Source: Flavobacteriaceae bacterium R38
GTDB taxonomy: Bacteria; Bacteroidota; Bacteroidia; Flavobacteriales; Flavobacteriaceae
NCBI GenBank assembly: GCA_009901575.1
Contig: WXYP01000002.1
Location: forward strand, 372,001 to 436,000
DNA: 64,000 nucleotides
Direction of reading: 5' to 3'
Within the stretch, counting starts at the first letter, position 1; each line of letters begins with the position of its first letter. Positions 8,421-35,645 of this stretch are shown piece by piece. The notes beneath the pieces were generated by a model. It did not search any database. It saw only the letters and a program-made list of their open reading frames with translations, and had not been told where the DNA came from. The translations under genes and the position numbers were made by a program.

Positions 8421-8629
8421 CTTCTACAACTATATTATTTAATTACATTAAAAATCAATTTTAATTTATTTACCTGCTTTGATTGTTGTTTACTTGAATT
8501 GAAGGTAAACTTCCTGTTTGTTTAGTGTGTTGTTTATCTTAAAAAGATAGAATAAATATCAATAATGTTGCCACATTATCACATATTGTATTTTTAATAT
8601 GTTAAACTTTTGAAATTTAAAAAATCTAT

Positions 8630-9319
8630 TTAGAAATTCGGACTCAAATTATATTTTTTATAGAAACTATCCAGTACAGAAATGACTTCATCTTCATTGT
8701 CCACTATAGAAATGAGGTCCATATCTTCCGGACTGATGTTTTTATATTTTTTGAGCAATGTATCTTTGATCCAGTCAAACAATCCTTCCCAAAAATCTTT
8801 ACCCACCAGGATGATCGGGAATTTTGCTATTTTTTCAGTCTGAATTAATGTTATCGCTTCAAACAACTCGTCTAAAGTCCCAAAACCTCCGGGCATTACC
8901 ACAAACCCCTGAGAGTATTTTACGAACATTACTTTTCTGACAAAGAAATAATCAAAGTTTAAGTTTTTATCGCTTTCAATATAGGGATTATCGTGTTGTT
9001 CAAAGGGCAGATCAATATTTAATCCTACGGAGGTTCCACCACCTAAGTGTGCCCCTTTGTTTCCAGCTTCCATAATTCCCGGTCCACCCCCGGTAATAAC
9101 CCCATATCCGGCATCTACTATTTTTCTGGCGACGTTTACTGCCAATTGGTAATATTCATGATCTGGTTTGGTACGAGCAGAACCAAAAATAGAAACACAT
9201 GGGCCAATTTGACTCATTTTTTCAAAACCATTTACAAACTCTCCCATGATTTTAAACAATGCCCATGAATCGTTTGTTTTGATTTCATTCCAGCCTTTTG
9301 TATGTTGTTCTTTTCCCAT
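8630..9319 (-). CDS. LOG-family protein (TIGR00730 type), nucleoside-monophosphate phosphoribohydrolase-like
   Basis: A 229-aa Rossmann-like protein. The hallmark motif of the lysine-decarboxylase-like/LOG family, PGGxGTxxE, is present as PGGFGTLDE, and an earlier GGGPGIMEAGNKGA motif is also clear. Characterised members hydrolyse the N-glycosidic bond of nucleoside 5'-monophosphates, including cytokinin ribotides. Many bacterial copies probably have a housekeeping nucleotide role. The old annotation 'lysine decarboxylase' is wrong for this family. It follows uvrA after about 30 nt on the same strand and is probably cotranscribed. No membrane segment or signal peptide is visible, so it should be cytoplasmic. 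Confidence 0.9.
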   Translation of the reverse strand: MGKEQHTKGWNEIKTNDSWALFKIMGEFVNGFEKMSQIGPCVSIFGSARTKPDHEYYQLAVNVARKIVDAGYGVITGGGPGIMEAGNKGAHLGGGTSVGLNIDLPFEQHDNPYIESDKNLNFDYFFVRKVMFVKYSQGFVVMPGGFGTLDELFEAITLIQTEKIAKFPIILVGKDFWEGLFDWIKDTLLKKYKNISPEDMDLISIVDNEDEVISVLDSFYKKYNLSPNF

Positions 9320-9349
9320 TCTTTATCTTTTAAAAAATTTGAAGCTTTG

Positions 9350-12181
9350 CTAATGTAATTCTTTTTTAAGAAATTTTGCAGTATAACTCTTTGTATCTAA
9401 AACAATTTCTTCCGGAGTTCCTTTAGCGACTACTTTTCCTCCGCCTTTTCCTCCTTCGTAACCAATATCAATGATGTAATCTACAGTTTTGATGACATCC
9501 ATATTGTGTTCTATAATTAATACGGTATTACCGCGATTTGTTAATTTATTCAATACTTCCATTAGTACCCTGATATCTTCAAAATGAAGTCCGGTTGTAG
9601 GCTCATCCAGAATATAGAAGGTATTACCGGTATCTCTTTTAGAAAGTTCTGTAGCCAATTTAATGCGCTGTGCTTCACCTCCCGAAAGGGTAGTGGATTG
9701 CTGCCCCAGGGTGATATATCCTAATCCGACATCTTTAATGGTTTTTAACTTTCTATAGATTTTAGGAATATTTTCAAAAAAGTCTACAGCTTCATTTATC
9801 GTCATATTAAGCACATCTGCAATAGATTTTCCTTTATAACGAATTTCAAGAGTTTCCCTGTTAAAACGTTTCCCGTGACAAGTTTCACATTCAACGTAAA
9901 CATCAGGGAGAAAATTCATTTCAATAACCCGTAAACCACCTCCCTGGCAAGTTTCACACCTTCCGCCTACAACATTAAAACTAAATCGGCCGGGTTTGTA
10001 CCCACGAATCATAGCTTCCGGGGTTTTTGTGAATAAGGATCTTATTTCGCTGAAAACCCCTGTGTAAGTTGCCGGATTTGATCTCGGAGTTCTACCAATT
10101 GGAGACTGATTAATATCGATAACTTTATCAATATGTTCTAGGCCTTTTATGCTTTTATAAGGCATAGGCTTTTTTACCGCCTTAAAAAAGTGCTTGTTTA
10201 AAATAGGATAGAGGGTCTCATTGATTAAGGTAGATTTTCCACTTCCTGATACTCCTGTTATCCCAATCATCTGCCCGAGAGGGAACTCAACATCTACATT
10301 TTTTAGATTGTTCCCCTGGCAACCTTTTAATATTAACGATTTCCCGTTGCCTTTTCTTCTTTGTTTCGGAATTTCAATTTCTTTTGTCCCGTTTAAATAA
10401 TCTGCTGTAAGGGTATGGTGCTTTTTTACTTCGAGGGGATTCCCTTCGGAAATGATTTCCCCTCCATGCCTTCCTGCCATCGGACCAATATCGATAACAT
10501 GATCTGCATGTTCTATCATATCTTTATCGTGTTCTACCACAATAACTGAATTTCCCAGGTTTCTCAAAGATTCTAACGACTTTATAAGACGCTCGTTATC
10601 TCTTTGATGCAGACCAATACTAGGTTCATCCAGGATATAAAGAACGCCTACCAGTTGCGAACCAATTTGTGTGGCTAAACGGATACGTTGTGCTTCTCCT
10701 CCAGAAAGTGATTTTGAACTCCTGTTTAGCGATAGATAATCTAGCCCTACGTCTAATAAAAAAGAAATTCGGGTATTAATTTCTTTTAAGATTTCTTCTG
10801 CTATCCGAAACTGTTTTTCAGTAAGCTCTTTTTCAACTTTCTTAAACCATTTCCCCAAATCGGCGATATCCATATTGGCCAATTCAGCTATATTTTTAGC
10901 ATTCAGTTTGAAATACAACGATTCTTTTTTCAAACGCGAGCCATCGCAAACCGGACATTTGTTTTTGTCCATAAAATCTTTTGCCCAACGCTTGATAGAA
11001 GTCGAATTTGATTCTTTAAACTGATTCATTATAAAACTGATAATACCCTCAAAATCAATCTTATAATCACGAGTAATGCCTAATGTTTTAGATTCTATAG
11101 CAAATTTTTCATTCCCCCCATTCAAAATAATGTCCATTGCTTCTTCCGGGATCTCTGAAATAGGGTCTGTAAGCTTGAATTTATAACGTTCTGCTATAAC
11201 TTCCAATTGTTTGAAGATCCATGATTTTTTATATTCCCCTAAAGGAGCAATCCCTCCGTTTTTAATAGATATTTTTTTATTCGGAATTATTTTGTCAATA
11301 TTAATTTCATGAACAGTTCCCAATCCGCTACACTCAGAACACATTCCTTTTGGAGAATTGAACGAAAAAGTATTCGGTTCAGGATTCGGATATGAGATTC
11401 CGGAGGAAGGACACATTAAGTTTCTACTAAAGAATCTGGCTTTTTCTTTTTGATGTTCGATCACCATTAAAACATCATCCCCATGATACATTGCAGTATT
11501 GATGCTTTCCGTCAAACGTTTTATAACATCTTCATCTTTAGAAACCTGAAGGCGGTCAATTACAATCTCGATATCATGATTTTTATAACGATCTACTTTC
11601 ATGCCTTTTTGCAAATCCAGGATTTCTCCGTCTACACGTACTTTGACAAAACCTTGCTTGGCAATTTGCTCAAAAAGCTCCCTGTAATGCCCTTTCCTGG
11701 AGCGAACAATAGGAGCGAGGATGTTCACTTTTTTTCCTTCAAAATCAGCAATAATTAAATCCCTGATTTGTTCATCACTATAGCTCACCATCTTTTCATT
11801 GGTGTTATAACTATAGGCATCACCGGCACGGGCAAATAAAAGGCGAAGAAAATCATAAATTTCTGTGATCGTACCCACAGTAGACCGGGGAGATTTTGAC
11901 GTCGTTTTTTGTTCTATGGCAATTACCGGTGATAAGCCATCAATTTTATCGACATCAGGACGTTCCAGGCCTCCGAGAAACTGCCGTGCATACGCAGAAA
12001 ATGTCTCAATGTAGCGTCGCTGGCCTTCAGCATAGATGGTATCAAAAGCTAAAGACGACTTCCCACTTCCCGAAAGACCAGTGATTACCACCAGCTTTTC
12101 CCGCGGAATAGTTACATCTATATTCTTAAGATTATGGACACGTGCGCCACGCACTTCTATGTTTTCTTCGTAGTTGGTCAT
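9350..12181 (-). CDS. uvrA: Excinuclease ABC subunit A
   Basis: A 943-aa UvrA, the DNA-damage sensor of nucleotide excision repair that loads UvrB. Both ATPase modules are complete: Walker [15 protein letters not shown] near residue 34 and [14 protein letters not shown] near residue 645, with ABC signatures [14 protein letters not shown] and [14 protein letters not shown]. Zinc-module cysteines occur as CPVCDGSRL in the first half and [17 protein letters not shown] in the second. The length is normal for the family. A minus-strand TAACTTCG at 12201-12208 could be its -7 element. It is probably the first gene of a two-gene unit with the LOG-family gene. Confidence 0.98.
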
Positions 12182-23659: not shown

Positions 23660-23697
23660 TAAAAGCCGGAAAACTTACTAAGTTTTCCGGCTTTTTT
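23660..23697 (+). terminator. Rho-independent terminator
   Basis: The stem AAAAGCCGGAAAACTT / AAGTTTTCCGGCTTTT is followed by T-rich sequence. It is strong and nearly perfect, and it separates the short unit from the biosynthetic operon. Confidence 0.92.
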
Positions 23698-23805: not shown

Positions 23806-24939
23806 ATGAAAAAGAGAATTGATGTATTAATAATTGGAGGAGGGTTAGCTGGTTTAACAAGTGCAATTCACTTATCTAAAAACGGGATTAAAGTAACATT
23901 GATTGAAAAGTCTTCATATCCGAGACATAAAGTTTGTGGAGAATATGTGTCCAATGAGATAATACCTTATTTAGATAGTTTAGGAGCTCCCCCTGAAAAA
24001 CTGTATCCGAAAAAAATAGACAAATTTTTATTTTCTTCTTCTAATGGAAGGACATTAACTTCAGATTTACCGGTAGGCGGATTTGGAGTTAGCCGATACG
24101 CACTCGATTCCTATTTATATTCTATTGCAAAAGAGAATGGCTGTGAAATCATTAAAGATACAGTTCTTGATGTTGTATTTGAAAAGGATAACTTTTCTGT
24201 GAATACGGAGCAGAATAGTATTTTAAATGCTAAAATTGTTATCGGAGCTTATGGAAAACGATCTAATATAGATCGCAAACTTGCAAGAGAATTTATAAAA
24301 AAGAAATCTCCATGGCTGGCAGTTAAAGCACATTATAAAGGTGATTTTCCGGAAGATTTGGTTGCTTTGCATAATTTTAAAGGAGGATATTGCGGAGTTT
24401 CAAAAGTAGAAAATGACAATGTCAATGTGTGTTATCTGGCAGATTACAAGACATTTAAAAAGTATAAAAACATCAAAGAATATCAGGAAAACGTGTTGAG
24501 TAAAAATCGACATTTGAAAAAACTTTTTACCGATTTCGAATTGGTCTTCGAGAAACCTCTTACTATTAGCCAGATTGCTTTTGACAAAAAGAAAGCGGTA
24601 GAACATCACATTCTGATGACTGGAGATACTGCAGGGCTAATACATCCTTTATGTGGTAACGGAATGGCCATGGCAATCCGAAGTGCCCAAATATGTTCAG
24701 ATCTTATTATTTCATATTTTAACGGAACTATTCCTTCCAGGGCAGTTTTAGAAAAAAAATATGCTTCCAGTTGGAATTTAACCTTTAAATCCCGACTAAG
24801 AACCGGGAGACTCTTAGCCTCTCTATTCAGGAATGAACAATTGTCAAAATGGATATTTAATAGCCTGGCGATTTTTCCATTCTTATTACCATTGATTATT
24901 AAAAAAACACATGGAGAACCTGTAACACATACCAGCTAA
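23806..24939 (+). CDS. FAD-dependent oxidoreductase of the biosynthetic operon (geranylgeranyl-reductase-like)
   Basis: A 377-aa flavoprotein. The N-terminal dinucleotide fold is IIGGGLAGLTSAIHL, followed by the family-typical RHKVCGEYVSNEI. The second FAD motif is GDTAGLIHPLCGNGMAMAIRSA. This subgroup of the aromatic-hydroxylase/geranylgeranyl-reductase superfamily includes enzymes that hydroxylate, epoxidise or reduce lipids and polyketides. It is the first gene of an eight-gene run. Its TAA touches the ATG of the methyltransferase gene with no gap. By analogy with the Streptomyces srs operon, where a flavoprotein oxidises an alkylresorcinol, I infer that it oxidises the type III PKS product. 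A saturating reductase role is the alternative. Confidence 0.85.
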   Translation: MKKRIDVLIIGGGLAGLTSAIHLSKNGIKVTLIEKSSYPRHKVCGEYVSNEIIPYLDSLGAPPEKLYPKKIDKFLFSSSNGRTLTSDLPVGGFGVSRYALDSYLYSIAKENGCEIIKDTVLDVVFEKDNFSVNTEQNSILNAKIVIGAYGKRSNIDRKLAREFIKKKSPWLAVKAHYKGDFPEDLVALHNFKGGYCGVSKVENDNVNVCYLADYKTFKKYKNIKEYQENVLSKNRHLKKLFTDFELVFEKPLTISQIAFDKKKAVEHHILMTGDTAGLIHPLCGNGMAMAIRSAQICSDLIISYFNGTIPSRAVLEKKYASSWNLTFKSRLRTGRLLASLFRNEQLSKWIFNSLAIFPFLLPLIIKKTHGEPVTHTS

Positions 24940-25653
24940 ATGTTTATCAATACTAAATACAGGACGGAGGAAGAAGAAATCATGGACGATTTTGAGATGG
25001 AAGGAGAACGTCTCAGAGTTACTTTAGATGAAATTGCACAGATAAACAGACTGTTAGGAGGAAATACGCTAACCTTGAAAGGAGTTGACTATTTAATAGA
25101 CCAAATAGTATCTGATAGCGTAGTGACGATTCTTGATATTGGTTGCGGAAACGGAGATATGCTCAGGGCACTTGCAGATTTCGCATTAAAAAAAGGGTGG
25201 AAGTTTAAATTGATTGGAGTAGATGCAAATCTTTATACTGTTGATTATGCCAGAAAACTATCAGAAACATATCAAAATATAGAATATCATCACATGGATA
25301 TTTTTTCAGATGAATTTTCTAATTTGGAATACGATATTGTAACTTGTACATTGATTTTACATCATTTTAATGATTCAGAATTACTGAAATTAATGACCTT
25401 GTTAATCAAAAAAAGTAAAATAGGAATTGTTGTTAATGATTTGCACAGAAGTGCTGTGGCCTATCGTCTCTTTCAGCTGGTAAGTTTCATTTTCAGATTA
25501 AGTGAAATGCCTTCTAAAGATGGTTTGACATCTATCCTCAGAGGATTTAAAAAGAAAGAACTGGAAACATTTTCTAAAAAATTAACTATTAAAAATTATA
25601 AGATCCGCTGGAAATGGGCTTTCCGATATCAATGGATCATCAAAACTGTATGA
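24940..25653 (+). CDS. SAM-dependent methyltransferase of the biosynthetic operon
   Basis: A 237-aa class I methyltransferase. SAM motif I is ILDIGCGNGDML, motif II is LIGVDANLYTVDYAR, and YDIVTCTLILHHFND follows in the usual post-motif position. The conserved N-terminal stretch (KYRTEEEEIMDDFEMEGE) argues for the first ATG, though a second ATG at 24982 is possible. The product should be an O- or C-methylated intermediate, most simply the phenolic or pyrone product of the adjacent type III PKS. Its stop overlaps the start of the PKS gene (ATGA), a sign of translational coupling. It is cytoplasmic. Confidence 0.85.
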   Translation: MFINTKYRTEEEEIMDDFEMEGERLRVTLDEIAQINRLLGGNTLTLKGVDYLIDQIVSDSVVTILDIGCGNGDMLRALADFALKKGWKFKLIGVDANLYTVDYARKLSETYQNIEYHHMDIFSDEFSNLEYDIVTCTLILHHFNDSELLKLMTLLIKKSKIGIVVNDLHRSAVAYRLFQLVSFIFRLSEMPSKDGLTSILRGFKKKELETFSKKLTIKNYKIRWKWAFRYQWIIKTV

Positions 25654-26702
25654 GTGTTAAAATAAAGACAGTAGCTAAAGAATTACCTCCTTATACCAGG
25701 ACAACAAAAGAAATACTCCCTTTCTTAGATTTATGGCTTAGCGGACAAGAAGATCGTTTTAGGCGTAAAGTCAAGAAAATATTTGAAAATGCAGCAGTAG
25801 ATAAACGGTATTCCATTATGGGGCCGGAAGAAGTGTTTGCCAAAACTTCTTTTGAAGAAAAAAATGATCTTTATATAGAAGGAGTTACAAAACTTGCTGA
25901 AGCCTCCCTGGAGAAAGCATTGAATAAAGCAGCATGGGATCCAAATTCACTGGATTATATCATTACAGTAAGTTGTACCGGTATTATGATCCCTTCTTTG
26001 GATGCGTATTTGATCAATAGTTTGAAACTGAGACAAGATATTATAAGGCTCCCTGTGACAGAAATGGGATGTGCTGCAGGAGTATCCGGGATTATTTATG
26101 CACAAAATTTTCTGAAGGCTAATCCGGGTAAACGTGCAGCTGTGATTGCTGTAGAATCTCCGACAGCAACTTTTCAACTGGATGATTATTCTATGGTCAA
26201 TGTGGTGAGTGCAGCTATTTTTGGGGACGGAGCTGCCTGTGTTTTATTATCTTCGGATGAAGAAGATGAAGGACCAAAGATCCTGGATAATGAAATGTAC
26301 CATTTCTATGAGGCAGAACATATGATGGGGTTTAAACTGACTAATGGTGGACTCAAAATGGTACTGGATGTTGAAGTGCCGGAAAAGATTGCAAATCATT
26401 TTCCTAATATTATACATCCTTTCCTGGAAAAAAACAACCTGACTATTGAAGATATAAATCATTTGATTTTTCATCCCGGAGGGAAAAAAATAGTACAAAC
26501 AGTAGAAGAGCTATTTGGTGATTTAGGAAAAAATATAGATCATACAAAAGAAGTATTGCGTTTGTATGGTAATATGTCTAGTGCAACAGTATTATATGTG
26601 TTAGAACGTTTTATGGATGAAAATCCTCAACCTGGAGAAAAAGGATTAATGCTGAGTTTTGGTCCCGGATTTTCAGCACAACGTATTTTATTAGAATGGT
26701 AA
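25650..26702 (+). CDS. Type III polyketide synthase
   Basis: A 350-aa chalcone-synthase-fold enzyme. I start it at 25650, giving an ATGA overlap with the methyltransferase stop; a frame 12 residues longer at 25614 lies inside that gene. The catalytic triad is complete: Cys141 in EMGCAAGVSG, His275 in IFHPGGKK and Asn308 in LYGNMSSATVLYVL. Family members condense a CoA- or ACP-bound starter with malonyl-CoA and cyclise the chain to resorcinols, phloroglucinols or pyrones. The adjacent ACP, ketosynthase, dehydratase and reductase genes suggest that the starter is a specially made acyl chain. Its end overlaps the next gene (ATGGTAA). Confidence 0.93.
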   Translation: MSVKIKTVAKELPPYTRTTKEILPFLDLWLSGQEDRFRRKVKKIFENAAVDKRYSIMGPEEVFAKTSFEEKNDLYIEGVTKLAEASLEKALNKAAWDPNSLDYIITVSCTGIMIPSLDAYLINSLKLRQDIIRLPVTEMGCAAGVSGIIYAQNFLKANPGKRAAVIAVESPTATFQLDDYSMVNVVSAAIFGDGAACVLLSSDEEDEGPKILDNEMYHFYEAEHMMGFKLTNGGLKMVLDVEVPEKIANHFPNIIHPFLEKNNLTIEDINHLIFHPGGKKIVQTVEELFGDLGKNIDHTKEVLRLYGNMSSATVLYVLERFMDENPQPGEKGLMLSFGPGFSAQRILLEW

Positions 26703-27487
26703 AAGAATTTACAGGAGATTGGGCCCTGATATTGGGTGGTAGTAGCGGATTAGGATTGGCCAGTGCTAAAAAACTGGCGCAACACGGTATGAACATTTGT
26801 GTTATTCATAGGGACAGGAAATCTTCTGTAGAGCGAATAGAAAAAGATTTTCAGGAAATCACAGCATATGGAGTAGAGTTGTTATCGTATAACATTGATG
26901 CAACCCGATCTGATAAACGTAAAGAAGCTATTGAAAAATTGGCAGCTCAGATTTCTGGAAAAGGAACGATCAAGTGTTTGGTACATAGCTTGTCCAAAGG
27001 AAATTTAAAAGCAATGGTTTCTGATGAGGCTCCGGTGTTGCAAAATGATGATTTTCATTTGACAATTGATGCAATGGCTATTAGTTTATACGATTGGACG
27101 CGTACCTTATTTGATGCAAAACTTTTTTCTGATAATGCCAGTATTATAGCTTTTACAAGCGAGGGAAATACAAAAGCCTGGAAACATTATGCAGCAGTTT
27201 CTGCAGCCAAAGCTGCTCTGGAAGCTATTACCAGAAATATAGCATTAGAATTTGCACCTTATGGAATAAGAGCCAATTGTATACAGGCCGGAGTTACAGA
27301 TACACCATCTTTACGTATGATTCCCGGGAATGAACAATTAAGGGCGTTTGCGGTGAAAAGAAACCCTAATAAACGTTTAACGGTGCCCGAAGATGTAGCA
27401 GGTGTTGTCTATTTACTCTGTAAAGAAGAAGCCGCCTGGATTAACGGGACGGTTATCCCTGTTGATGGAGGAGAACACATAAGCTAA
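26696..27487 (+). CDS. SDR, FabI-like enoyl-ACP reductase of the operon
   Basis: A 263-aa short-chain dehydrogenase. The nucleotide motif is LGGSSGLGLASAKKL. The active-site spacing is Tyr165-x6-Lys172 (YAAVSAAK), which is the enoyl-ACP reductase (FabI) spacing rather than the YxxxK of classical SDRs. The C-terminal GTVIPVDGGEHIS is typical. It most likely reduces the enoyl-ACP formed by the dehydratase encoded next. A ketoreductase role is possible, because no other ketoreductase is present in the operon. The start overlaps the PKS stop, and the dehydratase gene begins 6 nt after its stop. Confidence 0.82.
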   Translation: MVKEFTGDWALILGGSSGLGLASAKKLAQHGMNICVIHRDRKSSVERIEKDFQEITAYGVELLSYNIDATRSDKRKEAIEKLAAQISGKGTIKCLVHSLSKGNLKAMVSDEAPVLQNDDFHLTIDAMAISLYDWTRTLFDAKLFSDNASIIAFTSEGNTKAWKHYAAVSAAKAALEAITRNIALEFAPYGIRANCIQAGVTDTPSLRMIPGNEQLRAFAVKRNPNKRLTVPEDVAGVVYLLCKEEAAWINGTVIPVDGGEHIS

Positions 27488-27493
27488 AATGAT

Positions 27494-27937
27494 ATGGAAG
27501 TAAAAGATATCATAGCCCAATTGCCATATACCCCTCCTTTTCTTTTTGTAGATGAATTGATAGAGGTAACTGCAAATGGAGCTAAAGGTTGTTTTACTTT
27601 TGACGAAAGCCTGGATTTCTACAAAGGACATTTTAAAGATCATCCGGTTACGCCAGGTGTTATTTTAACAGAAACCATGGCACAGATAGGGGTAGTGTGC
27701 TTAGGGATATTCCTGATGTCTGATTCAGATATGAATGCTTCCGTAGCATTTACATCTTCTAATGTTGAATTTTTAAAACCGGTTTATCCCAATGAGAAAG
27801 TGACTGTGATTTCAGAGAAAATATACTTCCGATTTGGGAAATTAAAGTGTAAAGTCAGGATGCTGAATCAAAAAGAAGAAGTAGTTTGTACAGGTGAGAT
27901 AGCCGGAATGTTAATTAATCCTCTGGGAAATGAATAG
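27494..27937 (+). CDS. FabZ-like 3-hydroxyacyl-ACP dehydratase
   Basis: A 147-aa hot-dog-fold protein. The active-site segment is HFKDHPVTPGVILTETMAQ, with the catalytic His in the GHFKDHP motif and the acidic residue in the TETMAQIG helix, as in FabZ. The expected reaction is removal of water from 3-hydroxyacyl-ACP. The gene overlaps the ketosynthase gene by 8 nt, which fits translational coupling in a dedicated chain-building set. It is separate from any housekeeping fabZ. Confidence 0.88.
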   Translation: MEVKDIIAQLPYTPPFLFVDELIEVTANGAKGCFTFDESLDFYKGHFKDHPVTPGVILTETMAQIGVVCLGIFLMSDSDMNASVAFTSSNVEFLKPVYPNEKVTVISEKIYFRFGKLKCKVRMLNQKEEVVCTGEIAGMLINPLGNE

Positions 27938-29198
27938 GAGAGTTGTCATAACAGGCCTGGGAGTAGTTGCGCCTAACGGAGTTGGAATAGAAGCCTTTAA
28001 TGAAGCGATTAAAAACGGGGTTTCTGGAGTTAAACATCTGGAAGAACTTGAAACGCTTAAATTTTCATGTCAGATCGCCGGTCAACCCGAAATACCGGAA
28101 GGCAAAGAATTAGACTACCTGACTCCTTTACAACTTCGGAATTTTGACAGCAGCGGAATTTTATACGGCGTAATGGCGGGAATAGATGCGTGGAAAGATG
28201 CCGGACTAACATTCTCTGATGAAAATGAACCGGACTGGGATAGTGGGATTATTTTTGGAACAGGTACTTCAGGAGTTAATAAATTCAGGGAAGCTATTTA
28301 TAAAGTAGACGACCTTAAGGTAAGGAGATTGGGGAGTACTGTGGTAGCTCAAACCATGGCTAGTGGAGTGAGTGCTTATCTTGGAGGTATTTTAGGTACC
28401 GGAAATCAGGTTACGACCAATTCTTCGGCTTGTACTACAGGTACAGAAAGCATTTTAATGGCTTTTGACCGTATTAAAACAGGTCATGCAGAACGAATAT
28501 TAGTTGGAGGTACCAGCGATAGCAGCCCTTATTTATGGGGTGGCTTTGATGCGATGAAGGTATGTACCTATAAACATAATGAATCTCCGGAAAAAGCATC
28601 CAGGCCGATGAGTGCGTCTGCCAGCGGATTTGTACCGGGAAGTGGAGCAGGAGCTTTGGTTATAGAATCTTTAGAGAGTGCCGAGAAGAGAGGAGCAACT
28701 GTATACGCAGAAATTTTAGGCGGACATATAAACTCTGGAGGACAACGTTCTGAAGGTACTATGACCGCACCAAATAGCCAGGCTGTGCAACGATGTATCC
28801 GAAAAGCAGTAGAGCATGCAGGGATAAAAAGTACAGATATTGATCTGATCAACGGACATCTTACAGCAACAGCTAAAGATCCGGTTGAGATTGAAAATTG
28901 GAGTAAAGCTCTGAATCTGGAAGGAAGTCAGTTTCCGTATATCAACTCTTTAAAATCAATGATAGGACATTGTTTAAGTGCTGCTGGTAGTATTGAAGCA
29001 GTATCTTCGGTCTTACAGTTGCATCACGGATATATTTTTCCAAGTATTAATTGTGAAGATATTCATCCCGAGATTTTAAAAGTAATTGATACGGATAAAA
29101 TTCCGCAAGAGCATATTAAAAAGGATATTAATATCATTGCTAAAGCCAGTTTTGGTTTTGGGGATGTAAATGCATGTATTATCTTTAAGAAATTTTAA
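27930..29198 (+). CDS. Beta-ketoacyl-ACP synthase II-like (FabF/KAS) of the operon
   Basis: A 422-aa thiolase-fold ketosynthase. The nucleophile is Cys168 in NSSACTTGTES. The catalytic histidines are His310 (INGHLTATAKDP) and His347 (SMIGHCLSAAGS). It starts RRVVITGLGVVAPNG. Note INGHLTATAKDP where ordinary FabF has a VNAHGTSTxxND-type motif, a divergence typical of specialised KAS proteins in pigment or polyene clusters. The predicted role is chain elongation on the ACP encoded next. It appears as a single subunit with no chain-length-factor partner in the operon. Confidence 0.9.
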   Translation: MNRRVVITGLGVVAPNGVGIEAFNEAIKNGVSGVKHLEELETLKFSCQIAGQPEIPEGKELDYLTPLQLRNFDSSGILYGVMAGIDAWKDAGLTFSDENEPDWDSGIIFGTGTSGVNKFREAIYKVDDLKVRRLGSTVVAQTMASGVSAYLGGILGTGNQVTTNSSACTTGTESILMAFDRIKTGHAERILVGGTSDSSPYLWGGFDAMKVCTYKHNESPEKASRPMSASASGFVPGSGAGALVIESLESAEKRGATVYAEILGGHINSGGQRSEGTMTAPNSQAVQRCIRKAVEHAGIKSTDIDLINGHLTATAKDPVEIENWSKALNLEGSQFPYINSLKSMIGHCLSAAGSIEAVSSVLQLHHGYIFPSINCEDIHPEILKVIDTDKIPQEHIKKDINIIAKASFGFGDVNACIIFKKF

Positions 29199-29205
29199 AA
29201 GTTAT

Positions 29206-29454
29206 ATGAACAAAGAAGAACTTATCGCTAAACTAAAAACTATTGTAAAGCCCTACATTCAAGATGAAGAAGCATATGGGAACTTAAATGAAGAAACCGA
29301 TTTTATCAATGATCTTAAAATCAATTCTGCAAACCTGGTTGATGTTATTCTTGATGTAGAAGAAGAATTTGATATTGAAATCGATAATGAAGCAATGGAG
29401 CAAATGCTGGATGTTAAATCTGCTATCAGGATTATAGAAGAAAAGATGGCTTAG
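29206..29454 (+). CDS. Acyl carrier protein of the operon
   Basis: An 82-aa acidic protein beginning MNKEELIAKLKTIVKPYI. A longer frame from 29170 overlaps the ketosynthase gene and is less likely. The phosphopantetheine attachment site is Ser41 in DLKINSANLVDVIL. The usual DSL motif reads NSA here, consistent with a specialised carrier. The helix after it (EEEFDIEIDNEAMEQM) matches ACP helix III/IV. The gene lies 7 nt after the ketosynthase gene and 4 nt before the gene for its likely activating transferase. Confidence 0.9.
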   Translation: MNKEELIAKLKTIVKPYIQDEEAYGNLNEETDFINDLKINSANLVDVILDVEEEFDIEIDNEAMEQMLDVKSAIRIIEEKMA

Positions 29455-29458
29455 CATT

Positions 29459-30025
29459 GTGATAGGAAACGATATTATAGATTTAAAACAAGCTGCAAGA
29501 GAAAGTAATTGGAGGCGAAGAGGGTATTTAGATAAAATATATACAGATGAGGAACAGCAGGAAATTTATTCCTCAATAAATCCCGAAAAACATCTGTGGA
29601 TATTGTGGAGTATAAAAGAAGCTGCTTATAAGATCGTTAACAGGCATACAGGCAAACGTTTCTATAATCCTAAAAAATTAATATCAAAATTAATACATAC
29701 AGATGGCAATGTTGTAGAGGGGCAGGTTTTTTATGAAGAATCCTGTTTTTTAACGCATTCTGAGATCACAGACAGTTATGTACATACAGTTGCTGTAGAG
29801 AAAGATACCTGTCATTTGAATTGTACAATATCCAGTATAGATTTGATCAGTTCTTCTTCTACAAATGATTTAATAAAAAGGGTATTTAAAAGCTCAGAAT
29901 TTCAAATTTATAAAGATGAGAACCTGATCCCATTTTTATCAAAAGAAAATTCAAATGCAAAAATACCGGTATCTGTTAGTCATCATGGAGAATATATAAG
30001 CTTGGCTGTTCCAGGTTTAGTATAA
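29459..30025 (+). CDS. 4'-phosphopantetheinyl transferase
   Basis: A 188-aa protein starting with GTG. The PPTase signatures are the Mg-binding GNDIIDL at the N-terminus and WSIKEAAYKI in the middle. This matches the AcpS/Sfp-like group and its (V/I)G(I/N)D and W(S/A)xKEAxxK motifs. It should convert the adjacent apo-ACP to the holo form. It ends the operon. About 45 nt later a REP-type half-site follows, and no clear rho-independent terminator is seen. A dedicated PPTase strengthens the view that the operon is a self-contained biosynthetic unit. Confidence 0.88.
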   Translation: MIGNDIIDLKQAARESNWRRRGYLDKIYTDEEQQEIYSSINPEKHLWILWSIKEAAYKIVNRHTGKRFYNPKKLISKLIHTDGNVVEGQVFYEESCFLTHSEITDSYVHTVAVEKDTCHLNCTISSIDLISSSSTNDLIKRVFKSSEFQIYKDENLIPFLSKENSNAKIPVSVSHHGEYISLAVPGLV

Positions 30026-30198: not shown

Positions 30199-30711
30199 TT
30201 AATTCAAAGGAAATTTAAAAACTACAGCAACCACATTATCTTCTTTGTCACTATCAATATTAATATTGAAATCGGCAGAATTTACTTTAGCTTTCCCATA
30301 CAGGATATTGTTTTCTAACTTAAATTCTATGTTTGTTTGTTTTGAAACTCCTTTAATGGTAAAAGTTCCTTTAACGAGGTATTGATCTCCTTTTTTTGTA
30401 ATGGAAGAACTTTCAAAATAAATACGCGGGTATTTTTTTTGATAAAAATACTTTTTCCACATTAAATGTCCGTCACGTAAAAAATTTCCAGTCTCAAGAG
30501 TTTTGACAGCTACAGACCCTTTTAAACTCGAGCCATCCAGATTATTTTTATCAAAAACGATAGTACCTTTTATATCACTAAGACTTCCTTTTACCTTTTT
30601 AGAAATAAACTCAAAAGTAACTTCGGCATTTGGTAAGTCTACTCCTTTTGACTGAGAAATGACCCCCTGAATACTAAGAAAGCAGGATACTAAAAAAATG
30701 ATTTTCTTCAT
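30199..30711 (-). CDS. YceI-family periplasmic protein
   Basis: A 170-aa exported lipocalin-like protein. Its signal peptide is MKKIIFLVSCFLSIQGVISQ. The mature part has YceI hallmarks: AEVTFEFISKKVKGSLSDIKGTI, a GHLMWKKYFYQKKYPRIYFES strand pair, then GTFTIKGVSKQTNIEF. YceI proteins bind isoprenoid or other amphiphilic lipids in the periplasm. Convergent placement beside the phenolic-lipid-like operon is suggestive but could be chance. The length is normal. It is divergent from the giant nuclease gene, with 275 nt between. Confidence 0.85.
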   Translation of the reverse strand: MKKIIFLVSCFLSIQGVISQSKGVDLPNAEVTFEFISKKVKGSLSDIKGTIVFDKNNLDGSSLKGSVAVKTLETGNFLRDGHLMWKKYFYQKKYPRIYFESSSITKKGDQYLVKGTFTIKGVSKQTNIEFKLENNILYGKAKVNSADFNINIDSDKEDNVVAVVFKFPLN

Positions 30712-30986: not shown

Positions 30987-33900
30987 ATGAAAAAAAAATT
31001 ACTCTCTTTGATACTGTTTTTAGTAGTATCATTTTCTTTTTCTCAGTCTGTTTTTATCAATGAAATACATTATGATAATGCTGGTACAGATGAAAATGAA
31101 GGATTTGAAATTGCCGGCCCGGCAGGAACTGACCTAACAGGATATACTGTGGTATTGTACAATGGGTCTAACGGACTCCCATACAATACAATTAATTTAT
31201 CCGGAATTCTTACTGATAGTGGGAATGGTTTTGGTTTTTCTTCACAAATATTACCGACAAACGGACTCCAGAATGGAGCTCCTGATGGATTAGCCTTGAT
31301 AGATACCGGAAATAACGTGATCCAGTTTTTAAGTTATGAAGGTGTTGTTAATGCAAGTGGCGGGCCTGCTAGTGGTTTGTCAAGTACAGATATTGGAGTT
31401 GCTGAATCAAGTTCTACTCCAATAGGAAATTCGATACAATTGACAGGTACAGGAACAACCTTTTCAGATTTTACATGGCAGGCAGAATTAACAAGTACTT
31501 TTGGTACGGTTAATAGCGGACAAACATTTATTCAGGCGATTACAACTCCTTTGATCAATGAGTTTGTTTTTAATCATACAGGTTCAGATACTAATGAATT
31601 TGTAGAAGTGATTGCTGCTCAGGATGCAGATTTAAGTTCTTATTATTTATTGGAGATCGAAGGAGATGGTACCGGAAGTGGAACAATAGATGAAGTAATT
31701 CAGTTAGGAACAGCAGATAGTAACGGATATTTTACAACCCCTTTTGGAAGTAACACTTTTGAAAACGGAACAGTATCATTGCTATTAGTAGAAAATTTTA
31801 CAGGTAGCCTTGGAACTGATTTAGATACAGATAATGATGGAATCCTGGATTTAGAACCCTGGGATGCCATTGTAGACGATATTGCAGTTAATGATGGGGG
31901 GACTTCAGATATTAATTATGCGTCAGTAGTTCTTTTACAATCTTTTGATGGAAATACAAACACAGTAGGTGGAGCTTCCAGAATTCCTAACGGAATAGAT
32001 ACAGATGCTGTATCAGACTGGACGAGAAATGATTTTGACGGACAAGGTCTGCCAAACTTCCCTGATGCAGTTGCAGAAAGTGGAGAAGCAATCAATACTC
32101 CGGGTGCAGATAATATGGTTGCAGACCCTGATACCGGAGGTGGTGGAGGTGATGCTACTGTTTTTATCAATGAAATAGATGCAGATACTCCAGGTACAGA
32201 TACCATGGAATTTATAGAATTATATGATGGAGGAATGGGTAATACTGCTTTAGATGGATTGGTAGTTGTATTGTATAACGGAAGTAATAATTTAAGCTAT
32301 AACGTATTTGACCTTGATGGCTTTACAACTAATGCTAATGGATATTTTGTATTGGGAAATACCGATGTACCAAATGTTTCACTAGTATTTGGAAGTAACG
32401 GGCTTCAAAATGGAGCAGATGCAGTTGCTTTATATACTGGTGATGCTGCCTCTTTTCCGAATGGAACAGCAATTACAACAGATAATTTGATTGATGCTGT
32501 TGTTTACGATACTAATGATAGTGACGATGCAGATTTATTAGTATTGTTAACTGCAGGACAACCCCAGATAAACGAAGGAGGACAAGGGAATAATGCAGAA
32601 CATTCTATACAACGTTTTCCAAACGGTAGTGGAGTATTAAGGCAAACAGATACTTATGTTGCAGCAATTCCTACCCCCGGAGCTTCAAATACAAATGCTA
32701 CAGAAGCAGTAGACCTATTAATCAATGAGATAGATGCAGATACTCCTGGAACAGATACTGCAGAATTTATAGAGTTGTATGACGGAGGAACCGGGAATAC
32801 TGCTTTAGACGGATTTGTAGTTGTGCTGTATAACGGAAGCAATAATTTAAGTTATAATGCATTTGATTTGGATGGTTTTACAACTAATTCAGATGGGTAT
32901 TTTGTATTGGGAAATACCGATGTACCAAATGTTTCATTGGTATTTGGAAGTAATGGAATCCAGAATGGAGCAGATGCAGTAGCTTTATACAGAGCAGACG
33001 CTGCTGCTTTTCCAAATGGGACAGCAATCACAACAGATAATTTGATTGATGCTTTGGTGTATGATACTAATGATAGTGATGATGCAGAACTTTTGGTATT
33101 ACTCAATGCAGGACAACAACAAATCAATGAAAATGAGCAGGGACAAGGCGCTGTGCAATCATTACAACGTATCCCGAATGGAGAAGGCGGACCAAGAAAT
33201 ACAGATACATATACTCAGGCAGATCCTACTCCAGGAACAGCTAACGGAGGTGTAATTGTAGAACCGGGAGAAATCATTTCAATTCTTGAAGCGAGAAACG
33301 CTGCAGAGGGAACTTCGGTGACTATTACAGGTGTTTTAACAGCAACAGATAATTTTTCTGGTCCGGCATTTATACAGGATGCAACAGGAGGAATTGCCGT
33401 TTTTGATGAATTGGTTCACGGTAATGGGGTATTTGCTATAGGAGATTCCATTACGCTAACTGGAGTAAGAGCTGCTTTTAATGATCAGGTACAAATAGGT
33501 ACCGTTTCTAATGTAGTGAATAATGGTTTACCAAATAACCCAATTACACCGGTTACGATTACCCTGAGTCAGTTAGGCGAACATCCCGGAGAATTGGTAA
33601 GAGTTGTAAATACTACGTTCCCGAATCCTGGAAATCTTTTATTTGGAAATTCTAATTTCACGTTGACAGACGCCAGTGGAAACGGAGAATTGCGAATAGA
33701 TAATGATGTGGCAGATGTAGTTGGTTTAACACAGCCGGAGCAATGTGCAGAAATAACAGGAGTAGTTGGCAGGTTCAGAGAGTTTTTCCAGTTACTACCA
33801 AGAAATAATGCTGATATTCCTTGTGCAGAAGAATTTGTGCCCGGAGGAGATACTTCAGACATTCCAAGAGAAGAAACATTAGATATTGTTACCTGGAATA

Positions 33901-35645
33901 TTGAGTGGTTTGGAGATGAAGGAAATTCTCCTGCTGCCGGAAATCCAAATTCTGATGCCATTCAGAGAGATAGTGTTGCAACTGTAATCAGAGGACTGGA
34001 CGCAGATATTATTGCAGTACAGGAAATTACAGATATTCCACTATTCGAAGAATTAGTGAATAGTTTAGGAGGATATAATTTTATTTTATCTGAAGGGACT
34101 TCAGGATCACCTAATAGTCCGGGAGCTCAACGCGTCGGATTCATCTATAAAACAGATGTTATCGCTCCGGTATCTACAAGGATAATGTTTACATCGATTC
34201 ATCCAAACTATAATGGAGGAGATGATTCTGCATTGGTGGGATATCCTGATCCTTCCAGAAGTCGTTTTTATGCCAGCGGACGTCTTCCGTTTTTAATGAC
34301 AGCAAATGTTACGATTAACGGAACTACAGAAGAAATCGATTTCATTGCCTTACATGCAAGAGCAAACAGTGGTAATGACGCACAATCCAGGTACGATCAA
34401 CGTCGTTTTGATGTAGAAGTATTAAAAGATAGTTTAGATGCTAATTTTGCAGATCGCAGATTCATTGTAGCAGGAGATTTTAATGATGATGTAGATGAAA
34501 CAGTAGCCAATGTAAATACAACAGAGTCATCATATATAGAATTTGTAAATGATTCTTTAAATTATACGATTCCTACGGTTGCATTGAGTAATGCAGGATT
34601 GCGATCTTTTGTTTTTAATGATAATGTGATTGATCATATCCTGTTTTCCAATGAATTGGACGACACGTTTGTAGCAGGATCATCTACTGTTCATTTTGAG
34701 TTTTTTGATAACGATTACAGTACAACGACTTCAGATCACTTCCCGGTTTCTATTCGTTTGCAATTAGTTGAAGAACTTCAGATTACTGCATTAGATGGTA
34801 TAAATATTAATTGTAATGGTGCAAATGATGGTCAAGTAACAGTAGAGGCTACCGGAGGCGTAGCACCTTTGACATATCTTTGGAGTAATGGGGAAACAAC
34901 TGCCACAATAACAAACCTGGAACCAGGAACTTACAGTGTAATTGTTACAGATGCAACCGGAAATTCTGTATTATCAGATGATATATTAATTACAGAGCCA
35001 GAAGCTATAGTATTTAACACTACTGAAAATCAGAAATTATTTTTAGGATATGGCTCTGAAAGCGTTACTTTACAAGTGACAGATATAGCAGGAGGGACTC
35101 CGGATTACACCATTTTATGGAGTACTGGAGAGACAACAGAGAGTATCGTGGTTTCTCCAACAGAAACAACAGTTTATGCCGTAACAGTTACAGATGCCAA
35201 TGGTTGTTCTGTTGATAAAGAGATAATAGTAGAAATAGAAGACATCAGGTGTGGTAATAACTCTTACAGACCAAGAGTATCTATTTGCTTTAGAGGAAAA
35301 TCACTTTGTGTTTCTAAATATGCTGTAAATTATTTCTTGAGAAGAGGAGCTACTTTAGGTTCTTGCGGAGTTGATGAAAACAAGCCTGTAGTTGTAAAAG
35401 CTAAGGTTTATCCTAATCCGGTTCGTAACTATACCAATGTTTTCTTAAAAACAAGAATAGCTTCAGACCTCACATTGAGAGTCTATACTAAAGAAGGTGT
35501 TTTAGTTCAAACCTCTACTGCTAAAGTCAGAAAAGGAATTAATAGAGTTCCGTTAAATGTATCTGCACTTCCAAGAGGTTTATATATTTTGAAGATTGTT
35601 GATGCCGGAGAAAATATAAACGGAATACGCATCTTAAAGTTGTAA
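30987..35645 (+). CDS. Giant secreted nuclease/phosphoesterase with lamin-tail domains and T9SS signal
   Basis: A 1552-aa multidomain exported protein. In order: a signal peptide (MKKKLLSLILFLVVSFSFSQ); four lamin-tail-like domains from about residues 22, 189, 391 and 577 (INEIHYDNAGTDENEG, INEFVFNHTGSDTNEF, INEIDADTPGTDTMEF, INEIDADTPGTDTAEF); and an OB-fold-like segment (about 785-930). An endonuclease/exonuclease/phosphatase domain follows from about 964 (DIVTWNIEWFGDEG, VQEI, VAGDFNDD, DHILFSNEL, SDHFPVSIRL), then two SprB-like repeats (about 1262-1420). A Cys-containing SICFRGKSLCVSKYAV motif precedes the type IX sorting domain (VYPNPVRNYTNVFLK ... LPRGLYILKI). It resembles extracellular ExeM-type DNases. 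Lamin-tail copies 3 and 4 are nearly identical at DNA level. Confidence 0.88.
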   Translation: MKKKLLSLILFLVVSFSFSQSVFINEIHYDNAGTDENEGFEIAGPAGTDLTGYTVVLYNGSNGLPYNTINLSGILTDSGNGFGFSSQILPTNGLQNGAPDGLALIDTGNNVIQFLSYEGVVNASGGPASGLSSTDIGVAESSSTPIGNSIQLTGTGTTFSDFTWQAELTSTFGTVNSGQTFIQAITTPLINEFVFNHTGSDTNEFVEVIAAQDADLSSYYLLEIEGDGTGSGTIDEVIQLGTADSNGYFTTPFGSNTFENGTVSLLLVENFTGSLGTDLDTDNDGILDLEPWDAIVDDIAVNDGGTSDINYASVVLLQSFDGNTNTVGGASRIPNGIDTDAVSDWTRNDFDGQGLPNFPDAVAESGEAINTPGADNMVADPDTGGGGGDATVFINEIDADTPGTDTMEFIELYDGGMGNTALDGLVVVLYNGSNNLSYNVFDLDGFTTNANGYFVLGNTDVPNVSLVFGSNGLQNGADAVALYTGDAASFPNGTAITTDNLIDAVVYDTNDSDDADLLVLLTAGQPQINEGGQGNNAEHSIQRFPNGSGVLRQTDTYVAAIPTPGASNTNATEAVDLLINEIDADTPGTDTAEFIELYDGGTGNTALDGFVVVLYNGSNNLSYNAFDLDGFTTNSDGYFVLGNTDVPNVSLVFGSNGIQNGADAVALYRADAAAFPNGTAITTDNLIDALVYDTNDSDDAELLVLLNAGQQQINENEQGQGAVQSLQRIPNGEGGPRNTDTYTQADPTPGTANGGVIVEPGEIISILEARNAAEGTSVTITGVLTATDNFSGPAFIQDATGGIAVFDELVHGNGVFAIGDSITLTGVRAAFNDQVQIGTVSNVVNNGLPNNPITPVTITLSQLGEHPGELVRVVNTTFPNPGNLLFGNSNFTLTDASGNGELRIDNDVADVVGLTQPEQCAEITGVVGRFREFFQLLPRNNADIPCAEEFVPGGDTSDIPREETLDIVTWNIEWFGDEGNSPAAGNPNSDAIQRDSVATVIRGLDADIIAVQEITDIPLFEELVNSLGGYNFILSEGTSGSPNSPGAQRVGFIYKTDVIAPVSTRIMFTSIHPNYNGGDDSALVGYPDPSRSRFYASGRLPFLMTANVTINGTTEEIDFIALHARANSGNDAQSRYDQRRFDVEVLKDSLDANFADRRFIVAGDFNDDVDETVANVNTTESSYIEFVNDSLNYTIPTVALSNAGLRSFVFNDNVIDHILFSNELDDTFVAGSSTVHFEFFDNDYSTTTSDHFPVSIRLQLVEELQITALDGININCNGANDGQVTVEATGGVAPLTYLWSNGETTATITNLEPGTYSVIVTDATGNSVLSDDILITEPEAIVFNTTENQKLFLGYGSESVTLQVTDIAGGTPDYTILWSTGETTESIVVSPTETTVYAVTVTDANGCSVDKEIIVEIEDIRCGNNSYRPRVSICFRGKSLCVSKYAVNYFLRRGATLGSCGVDENKPVVVKAKVYPNPVRNYTNVFLKTRIASDLTLRVYTKEGVLVQTSTAKVRKGINRVPLNVSALPRGLYILKIVDAGENINGIRILKL
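32166..33115 (+). repeat. In-frame tandem repeat of lamin-tail domains 3 and 4
   Basis: The stretch from 32166 recurs from 32721 with an offset of 555 bp (185 codons). Long runs are identical, for example GGAAATACCGATGTACCAAA in both. The high similarity points to a recent duplication or gene conversion within the nuclease gene. Confidence 0.8.

Follow-up and report, generated by a model that had tools for sequence, protein, structure and literature searches.

The window is a 64,000 nucleotide stretch of the genome of Flavobacteriaceae bacterium R38. Between positions 23806 and 30025 it contains eight intact genes, all on the + strand and arranged head to tail, as the initial annotation had described. 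These genes, and two flanking features, are as follows.

23661..23695 (predicted): strong 16-pair stem-loop resembling a bidirectional terminator, between the operon and the gene that precedes it
23806..24939 (+): FAD-dependent oxidoreductase, 377 aa; most likely a ring hydroxylase/oxidase
24940..25653 (+): SAM-dependent methyltransferase (MT), 237 aa (Methyltransf_25; best NCBIfam match PRK06202, under cut-off)
25614..26702 (+): type III polyketide synthase (PKS), start probably 25647, Cys/His/Asn triad
26696..27487 (+): SDR, probably a FabL-like enoyl-ACP reductase (Y165-x6-K172); optional across the family
27494..27937 (+): FabZ-like 3-hydroxyacyl-ACP dehydratase (DH), 147 aa
27930..29198 (+): FabF-like beta-ketoacyl-ACP synthase (KS), 422 aa
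29170..29454 (+): acyl carrier protein (ACP), start probably 29206, phosphopantetheine Ser41 (numbered from 29206)
29459..30025 (+): 4'-phosphopantetheinyl transferase (PPTase), 188 aa, GTG start
30199..30711 (-): YceI-like lipid-binding protein, convergent with the operon

In keeping with the tight packing claimed at the outset, neighbouring genes are split by small gaps or overlap. The FAD enzyme and methyltransferase genes abut (0 nt), PKS and SDR overlap by 7 nt, SDR and DH are 6 nt apart, DH and KS overlap by 8 nt, and ACP and PPTase are separated by 4 nt. Note that the two remaining junctions depend on the choice of start codon. Hence, the 40 nt overlap between methyltransferase and PKS falls to 7 nt if the PKS begins at 25647, the start favoured by homologues. 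Similarly, the 29 nt overlap between KS and ACP becomes a 7 nt gap when the ACP begins at the next Met (29206). Upstream, approximately 110 nt remain for a promoter between the stem-loop and the operon. A sigma-70 promoter scan returned fewer sites (20) than shuffled sequences (30.9), and terminator-like sites overall numbered 6, compared to 3.8 in shuffles.

Seven of the eight operon proteins score above curated Pfam cut-offs (FAD_binding_3, Methyltransf_25, Chal_sti_synt N and C, adh_short_C2, FabA-like, ketoacyl-synt N and C, and ACPS), with the ACP slightly under (20.2 bits vs 20.8). The top NCBIfam matches are the geranylgeranyl-reductase superfamily, PRK06202, DpgA, FabL, FabZ, FabF, ACP and PPTase, and agree in kind with Pfam. 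Since all eight are under their curated cut-offs, the operon proteins are divergent members. All of the fatty acid synthase (FAS)-like parts are separate proteins; multidomain type I synthase subunits are not encoded by the operon.

The initial annotation proposed looking for this gene order in relatives, and there it is well kept. Our main set comprised 44 Bacteroidota loci, being all remaining high-identity PKS matches from the genome samples, and a second set added 19, giving 63 in total. The order FAD-MT-PKS-(SDR)-DH-KS-ACP is retained in all 44 loci of the main set, 33 of which also have the PPTase. The second set follows the same order, barring contig ends, the reduced locus L034, and accessory genes inserted or absent in places. 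Across both sets, which may share species, 19 of the 63 loci have all eight genes, 13 have all except the PPTase, and 27 have all except the SDR. Contig ends interrupt three (L025, L026 and L030) and one, L034, is without SDR, DH and PPTase. Disregarding the SDR, the PPTase was not found in 13 of 59 otherwise complete loci. Within 60 genomes around the window, PKS (E<=1e-20), KS (E<=1e-90) and FAD enzyme (E<=1e-40) match exactly the same 12, including R38. Given the order in 44/44 loci, and this shared distribution, we conclude that the operon is more than a chance arrangement. The unit is not particular to the R38 genome and is widespread among Bacteroidota; the PKS family is found in 35 of 392 sampled genomes of the phylum (own included).

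Other type III PKS loci look different. No KS, DH or ACP match was found at any of 16 further Bacteroidota loci (L127-L142; <=38% identity, 10-14 kb each), which were hand-picked, mainly as best-ranked matches, rather than drawn at random. In three of these (L139, L140 and L142), close homologues of the FAD enzyme (376-418 bits) and methyltransferase (165-267 bits) adjoin a different type III PKS. Likewise, KS, DH and ACP matches were not found at eight of eight Bacillus-type and Chlorobiota type III PKS loci.

Genes flanking the operon are common to close relatives (for example L027, L028, L029 and L031, or L020 and L024-L026) and not to the whole set. We scanned 20 proteins, encoded beside or inside operons at L020, L021, L024, L028, L029 and L032, as candidate members of the unit. 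All but YceI looked unrelated and were set aside; they include LysE, GNAT, a DinB-type polymerase, an ABC transporter, TerC, an E1 dehydrogenase and OmpA, among others. The YceI gene, the one neighbour for which enrichment was computed, heads the operon in 8 of the 63 loci, and YceI is therefore a possible accessory.

Catalytic residues of the FAS-like module are conserved. The Cys-His-His residues of the KS, which is 34% identical to the housekeeping FabF of the same genome, are present in 62/62 rows with those columns (one more row is cut there). The ACP Ser, and the DH His and Glu that we took as the FabZ pair, are also found in 62/62. For KS and ACP, the catalytic residue numbers first given were correct; those for the PKS were not. 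With numbering from Met25647, the triad of the PKS reads C142/H276/N309, one above the earlier numbering, and it is present in 64/64 sequences (63 loci plus the window).

The SDR had been suggested to act as the missing ketoreductase. We reject this as the main reading because the Y-x6-K spacing, aligned to FabL (3oic) and seen in 33/33 complete copies, points to an enoyl reductase. Note that this count drops unrelated SDRs from L015 and L098, and leaves out the cut SDR of L030. FabL is also the best NCBIfam model, but at 140.4 bits against a cut-off of 328. On this sequence evidence, the SDR is most likely an enoyl-ACP reductase. That the operon has no ketoreductase or malonyltransferase, and must borrow them, holds up: FabG, FabF and AcpP are encoded elsewhere in the genome, each above its NCBIfam cut-off, as is a FabD-type acyltransferase (above the Pfam cut-off). 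A FabH gene is likewise absent from the operon. These three absences count against the pathway proposed below, as do the lack of KS, DH and ACP at the sister locus L032, and of DH and SDR at L034.

The operon SDR is missing from 30 of the 63 loci: the 27 that are otherwise complete, plus L025, L026 and L034. On a tree with no two identical rows, and omitting L026 and L030 (no full KS), its presence changes about five times, and four of these changes are forced by well-supported branches. Loss would most simply account for the changes, and some lineages may consequently make unsaturated chains. A further possibility is that KS and DH extend the starter without enoyl reduction, with the SDR, at loci that have it, reducing only some double bonds, so that the product is a polyene pigment. 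The frequent absence of the SDR, its repeated changes of state, and the persistence of KS and ACP where it is missing, would all fit. Conversely, a host enoyl reductase could substitute, the operon in the window retains an SDR with its catalytic pair, and no aryl-polyene or flexirubin model is among the 25 KS and 6 DH matches listed. We consider such a polyene starter unlikely.

With both Chal_sti_synt domains above the Pfam cut-off, the third gene encodes a type III PKS of the chalcone synthase (CHS) superfamily. Its best matches, in sequence and in structure, are Pks11 and CylI, with RppA lower. The predicted model matches Pks11 with a Z score of 50.4, CylI with 48.2 (28% identity over the structure alignment) and THNS with 46.5. 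No ArsC was among the 50 structure matches listed, which carries no information about that enzyme, nor among the best 60 of 80 PDB matches to the PKS of L142. In a deep tree that includes the window together with 14 of the 63 loci, the sampled lipid synthases all fall outside the separate clade formed by the PKS and a Bdellovibrionales enzyme (100/99). Phylogeny had been proposed as a check against RppA. The family and L032 form one clade (100/99) that excludes RppA, itself weakly placed (87/45, long branch). At the CHS-256 position the family has Phe and RppA has Tyr. We rejected RppA/THNS identity because the PKS does not group with RppA and Phe replaces this Tyr. DpgA (NF042429), the highest NCBIfam score, was rejected at 183.7 bits against a cut-off of 425. 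Both the position of the clade and the DpgA score weigh against the pathway below.

Flexirubin and dialkylresorcinol (DarA/DarB) clusters also produce resorcinol lipids in Bacteroidota, and there the ring is made by the KAS III-like DarB rather than a type III PKS. The R38 PKS is no match to the dialkylresorcinol model: it scores just 19.5 bits with DarB, where the cut-off is 550, and that identity was also rejected.

On these matches, and the Phe in place of the RppA Tyr, a lipid starter is favoured over an RppA-type product. The PKS could instead make a small aromatic core from malonyl-CoA, in the manner of DpgA, PhlD or RppA, with the FAS tail joined later, as for flexirubin. This would be consistent with DpgA having the top score and with a PKS clade that has no characterised member. 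Yet that score is less than half of the cut-off, the RppA Tyr is replaced, and the eight genes include no acyltransferase, ligase or DpgB-D-like gene. Hence, we regard a small core as improbable. Because the clade is separate from the sampled lipid synthases, the acyl starter and ring type are things that we infer.

One PKS residue bears on the type of ring. To place it we used CHS numbering, with what we take to be Gly256 and Phe265, rather than the ArsB sequence. The two supports for this mapping are equal spacing (284 to 293, 256 to 265; ArsC has Gly at 284) and the Trp of Pks11 at the same column. Met293 is the residue used in the spacing check (PMC6274091). At the column that likely matches ArsB Trp281, all 64 members have Phe, and not the Trp of tailored resorcinol operons, which is a further point against the pathway. 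If an acyl-ACP-primed PKS lactonised the chain, the product would be an alkyl-pyrone, subsequently methylated and oxidised. Such a route would agree with the Phe, and with the top sequence and structure match being Pks11, whose PDB title concerns alkylpyrones. However, aldol closure is reportedly promoted by an aromatic residue at position 281 (PMC6274091), and methyltransferase and oxidoreductase pairs accompany resorcinol/quinone operons. Moreover, the column is Trp in the pyrone enzyme Pks11 itself and Leu in the resorcinol enzyme CylI, and hence is not decisive for ring type. A pyrone is a conceivable product, though not one that we expect.

For the FAD enzyme, flavin halogenases and aromatic hydroxylases lead the folds that match the predicted model (pLDDT 85), and the protein is most likely a ring hydroxylase/oxidase. 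PltA and other flavin halogenases do head the Foldseek list (TM 0.82 by query length), which might indicate a halogenated phenolic lipid. Against this, the motif WxWxIP, presumably the signature of flavin halogenases, was not found in the translation, aromatic hydroxylases and geranylgeranyl reductases fit about as well, and the best NCBIfam match, albeit under cut-off, is the geranylgeranyl reductase superfamily. A halogenase is very improbable.

Several characterised systems share parts of this organisation. In hidABC, for hierridin B in cyanobacteria, and in planctomycete operons, methyltransferase, oxidoreductase and type III PKS also occur together, and make a long-chain resorcinol lipid (PMC10896814). 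As described there, these are three-gene operons, in the order MT-oxidoreductase-PKS rather than FAD-MT-PKS, and KS, DH, enoyl reductase (ER), ACP and PPTase are not among their genes (PMC10896814). The pkqA-C and srs genes of Mycobacterium smegmatis and Streptomyces similarly pair a PKS with methyltransferase and oxidoreductase, in a route from resorcinol to quinone (PMC9927152). That three-gene machinery has no FAS module, unlike the R38 operon, and its PKS is of the Trp281 type. A type III PKS beside both tailoring enzymes is found in all 63 family loci. In Azotobacter, a dedicated FAS shares the ars operon (ArsA-D) with the type III PKSs that it feeds, and ArsB and ArsC take acyl chains off the ACP domain of ArsA (PMC6274091). 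FAS genes are likewise in the PKS operon here (KS, DH and ACP in 44/44 loci of the main set). The differences are that ars encodes large type I synthases, termed ‘type I pkss’ (PMC5916927), whereas the R38 parts are discrete and type II-like, with tailoring genes added. In the cylindrocyclophane pathway (CylB/D/H/I), an ACP-linked chain passes to the type III PKS CylI, the second-best structure match of the R38 enzyme, to give an alkylresorcinol (PMC8086630). The R38 operon differs from Cyl, which starts from decanoic acid and involves type I PKSs, halogenation and dimerisation.

We propose, with a probability of roughly 60%, that the operon encodes a private type II mini-FAS that primes a type III PKS, with the ring then tailored by the methyltransferase and FAD enzyme. 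Briefly, the PPTase would load the dedicated ACP, on which the FabF-like KS, FabZ-like DH and FabL-like SDR would build an acyl chain. FabG and FabD, and probably FabH, would be supplied by primary metabolism. The acyl-ACP would directly prime the PKS, which would add malonyl units and then close the ring; aldol condensation, giving an alkylresorcinol, is more likely here than pyrone formation. Methylation, and hydroxylation or oxidation of the ring, would give a methylated phenolic lipid or quinone. Where the SDR is missing, a host enoyl reductase may reduce the chain, or the chain may stay unsaturated. The proposal retains the model first put forward, of one operon joining a type III PKS, a tailoring pair and a discrete type II FAS-like module; the SDR as ketoreductase is what has gone. 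What the analysis establishes is the content and order of the genes, their conserved catalytic residues, their co-occurrence and the repeated change in SDR presence; each reaction, including hand-over to the PKS, the ring type and the role of the lipid we infer.

No description of the Bacteroidota gene set, or its product, was found among the open-licence PMC papers listed, judged by title or opening abstract. A survey of Flavobacteriaceae places type III PKS clusters second, after terpenes, at 9% of clusters, and gives a figure of 0.39 per strain for one clade (PMC7440613). In the literature searched, we found no product for these clusters. Since the PKS occurs in 12/60 and 35/392 genomes, the operon family probably accounts for part of them.

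As a compact system whose parts are all discrete, the operon lends itself to studying the transfer of a starter from a carrier protein to a type III PKS. In addition, the clusters, some of which have the enoyl reductase and some not, form a natural series for relating tail saturation to genotype. More speculatively, and we think this doubtful, the family may represent a Bacteroidota-wide pathway for a lipid-quinone or polyenyl phenol. Repeated loss of the enoyl reductase would then switch lineages between saturated and polyene tails, and the product, with a YceI-type protein handling it, might be a protective lipid or a membrane redox carrier. If so, a private type II FAS would set the length and saturation of the tail, and the ring would be the work of the type III PKS and its two tailoring enzymes.

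The window operon is as tightly packed as the initial annotation proposed, and has the following layout.

23806 to 30025, + strand: operon of eight ORFs
23661-23695: strong terminator-like stem between the upstream gene and the operon

If translation of the PKS and ACP begins at the methionines that homologues suggest, no overlap between adjacent ORFs exceeds 8 nt and no gap exceeds 7 nt. Pfam gives the order FAD oxidoreductase, class I methyltransferase (MT), type III PKS, SDR, FabA/FabZ-like dehydratase (DH), ketosynthase (KS), ACP and PPTase, with the ACP score slightly below the cut-off. NCBIfam returns the same kinds of protein, the best matches being below curated cut-offs.

The PKS, KS and FAD enzyme (E limits 1e-20, 1e-90, and 1e-40, respectively) were used to search 60 genomes, comprising that of the window and 59 related ones. 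Each matched the identical set of 12 genomes; none of the three was found in the other sampled member of the window's genus. Across 392 genomes of the phylum, 178 contained PKS matches at E 1e-20. Here, identity breaks sharply, with 35 at 67% or more (own included) and the next at 38%. All 44 other high-identity loci, 11 from the first search and 33 from the second, were fetched. Every one has the order FAD-MT-PKS-(SDR)-DH-KS-ACP, and 33 also have the PPTase. Nineteen further, named Bacteroidota loci are concordant, except for contig ends, insertions in some (L020 and L024), and one reduced locus. They include Flavobacterium, Pedobacter, Chitinophaga, Winogradskyella, Polaribacter, Tenacibaculum, Mesonia, Salinimicrobium, Patiriisocius, a Saprospiraceae MAG and others. 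Altogether, 19 of the 63 loci are complete, 13 lack the PPTase, 27 lack the SDR, 3 are truncated by contig ends (L025, L026, and L030) and one is reduced. Operon flanks are common only to groups of near relatives. We conclude that the gene set is real and conserved, and that the eight genes are one unit.

For comparison, 16 Bacteroidota type III PKS loci of no more than 38% identity were hand-picked from the 392-genome search. KS, DH and ACP had no match at any of the 16, for which 10-14 kb each was fetched, or at any of eight Bacillus-type and Chlorobiota loci. At three of the 16 (L139, L140, and L142), the PKS has neighbours strongly homologous to the FAD enzyme and MT, and L141 has a moderate MT match and a weak FAD match. 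Hence, the tailoring pair is also found with other type III PKSs, and the FAS module accompanies the PKS clade of the operon family.

The closest sequence matches of the PKS are Pks11, an alkylpyrone synthase, and CylI, an alkylresorcinol synthase. Its confident structure model (pLDDT 90.6) matches Pks11 (Z 50.4), CylI (Z 48.2) and THNS (Z 46.5). The PKS tree comprised 47 rows, of which 15 came from the family; these form a single clade (100/99), sister to a Bdellovibrionales MAG enzyme (100/99) and separate from the group of Pks11, CylI and Bacillus enzymes (92/85). Grouping with RppA, raised in the initial annotation as evidence against an acyl starter, was not seen; RppA weakly joins the Pks11/CylI/Bacillus group (87/45). 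The sister locus (L032, 7983-12937; 54% PKS identity) has no match for KS, DH or ACP. Its FAD enzyme is a distant one (110 bits) and its YceI-like match a weak one (21.8 bits), and the PKS is followed by a 700-aa protein without a Pfam match that looks like an RND/MMPL-type membrane exporter.

One PKS column, which we take to match ArsB Trp281 by our own mapping via CHS numbering, is Phe in all 64 family members. Trp occupies this putative column in 26 of the 32 non-family rows, including the pyrone synthase Pks11. The others have Tyr (RppA and L032), Leu (CylI, Pks18, and 4b0n) or, in one unrelated row (L137), Phe. With this distribution, resorcinol is neither proven nor excluded. We only lean towards it over pyrone.

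Within the FAS module, the catalytic residues of the KS and ACP, and the DH pair, are invariant among family loci. The KS has only 34% identity to the genome's own FabF, which is paired with AcpP elsewhere. The initial annotation noted that the operon encodes no separate ketoreductase or dedicated malonyltransferase, and offered two solutions. Borrowing is possible, since the genome has its own FabG and a FabD-type acyltransferase. The other, the SDR as ketoreductase, fared less well. Because the SDR aligns with FabL, and Y-x6-K is present in 33 of 33 complete copies, enoyl reduction is its likely step. By parsimony, SDR presence changed five times on the tree, four changes being forced by well-supported branches; loss is the simplest reading. 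The reduced locus, L034 of Flavobacterium tegetincola (6164-10676), is without SDR, DH and PPTase, and retains FAD-MT-PKS-KS-ACP in a decaying or simplified form. Elsewhere in the window's genome (G000), several carrier-protein domains within long ORFs (C8:13916-22214 and C4:618544-633627) suggest NRPS/PKS clusters.

The nearest folds to the FAD enzyme model (pLDDT 85) are flavin halogenases and aromatic hydroxylases. The flavin halogenase motif WxWxIP is absent from the window enzyme. By analogy with the hid, srs and pkq operons, the enzyme would hydroxylate or oxidise the ring. The Saprospiraceae MAG operon (L030, 6638-8034) has two tandem methyltransferase genes. In the planctomycete study, the oxidoreductase role is left open and carbon methylation is considered probable for the methyltransferase (PMC10896814).

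A YceI-type gene lies immediately upstream, in the operon direction (gaps -14 to +6 nt), at 8 of 63 loci, two of which have a second copy farther upstream. Six more have a convergent YceI gene 0.46 to 1.8 kb downstream; in the window, one lies 173 nt downstream. At the density of the window's genome, which carries 7 YceI genes across 3.94 Mb, ~0.8 would be expected in 451 kb of flanks, where 16 were observed (14 loci). Note that this enrichment is an indication only, given the relatedness of the loci, a density taken from a single genome, and a profile derived from four of these YceI genes (window, L020, L022, and L023). A lipid/isoprenoid-binding gene is also present in a planctomycete type III PKS operon (PMC10896814). 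In L020, a Flavobacteriaceae MAG locus (9200-12013), genes for a PhyH-type dioxygenase and a GH16-type protein separate SDR from DH within the operon, and an ORF of 161 aa without a match separates PKS from SDR. In the window, 30987-35645 encodes a secreted-looking 1552-aa protein with repeated segments and with what look like an endonuclease/exonuclease/phosphatase domain and a C-terminal sorting domain.

Our best reading, with a probability of about 0.6, is that the operon makes an acyl-ACP-primed, methylated and oxidised ring lipid. The open-licence PMC papers searched gave no product for the gene set. Gene content agrees with the proposed merger of two known ideas. Like ars, the operon would have a FAS-fed type III PKS, its FAS consisting of discrete type II parts; like hid, srs and pkq, it would yield a tailored ring lipid.
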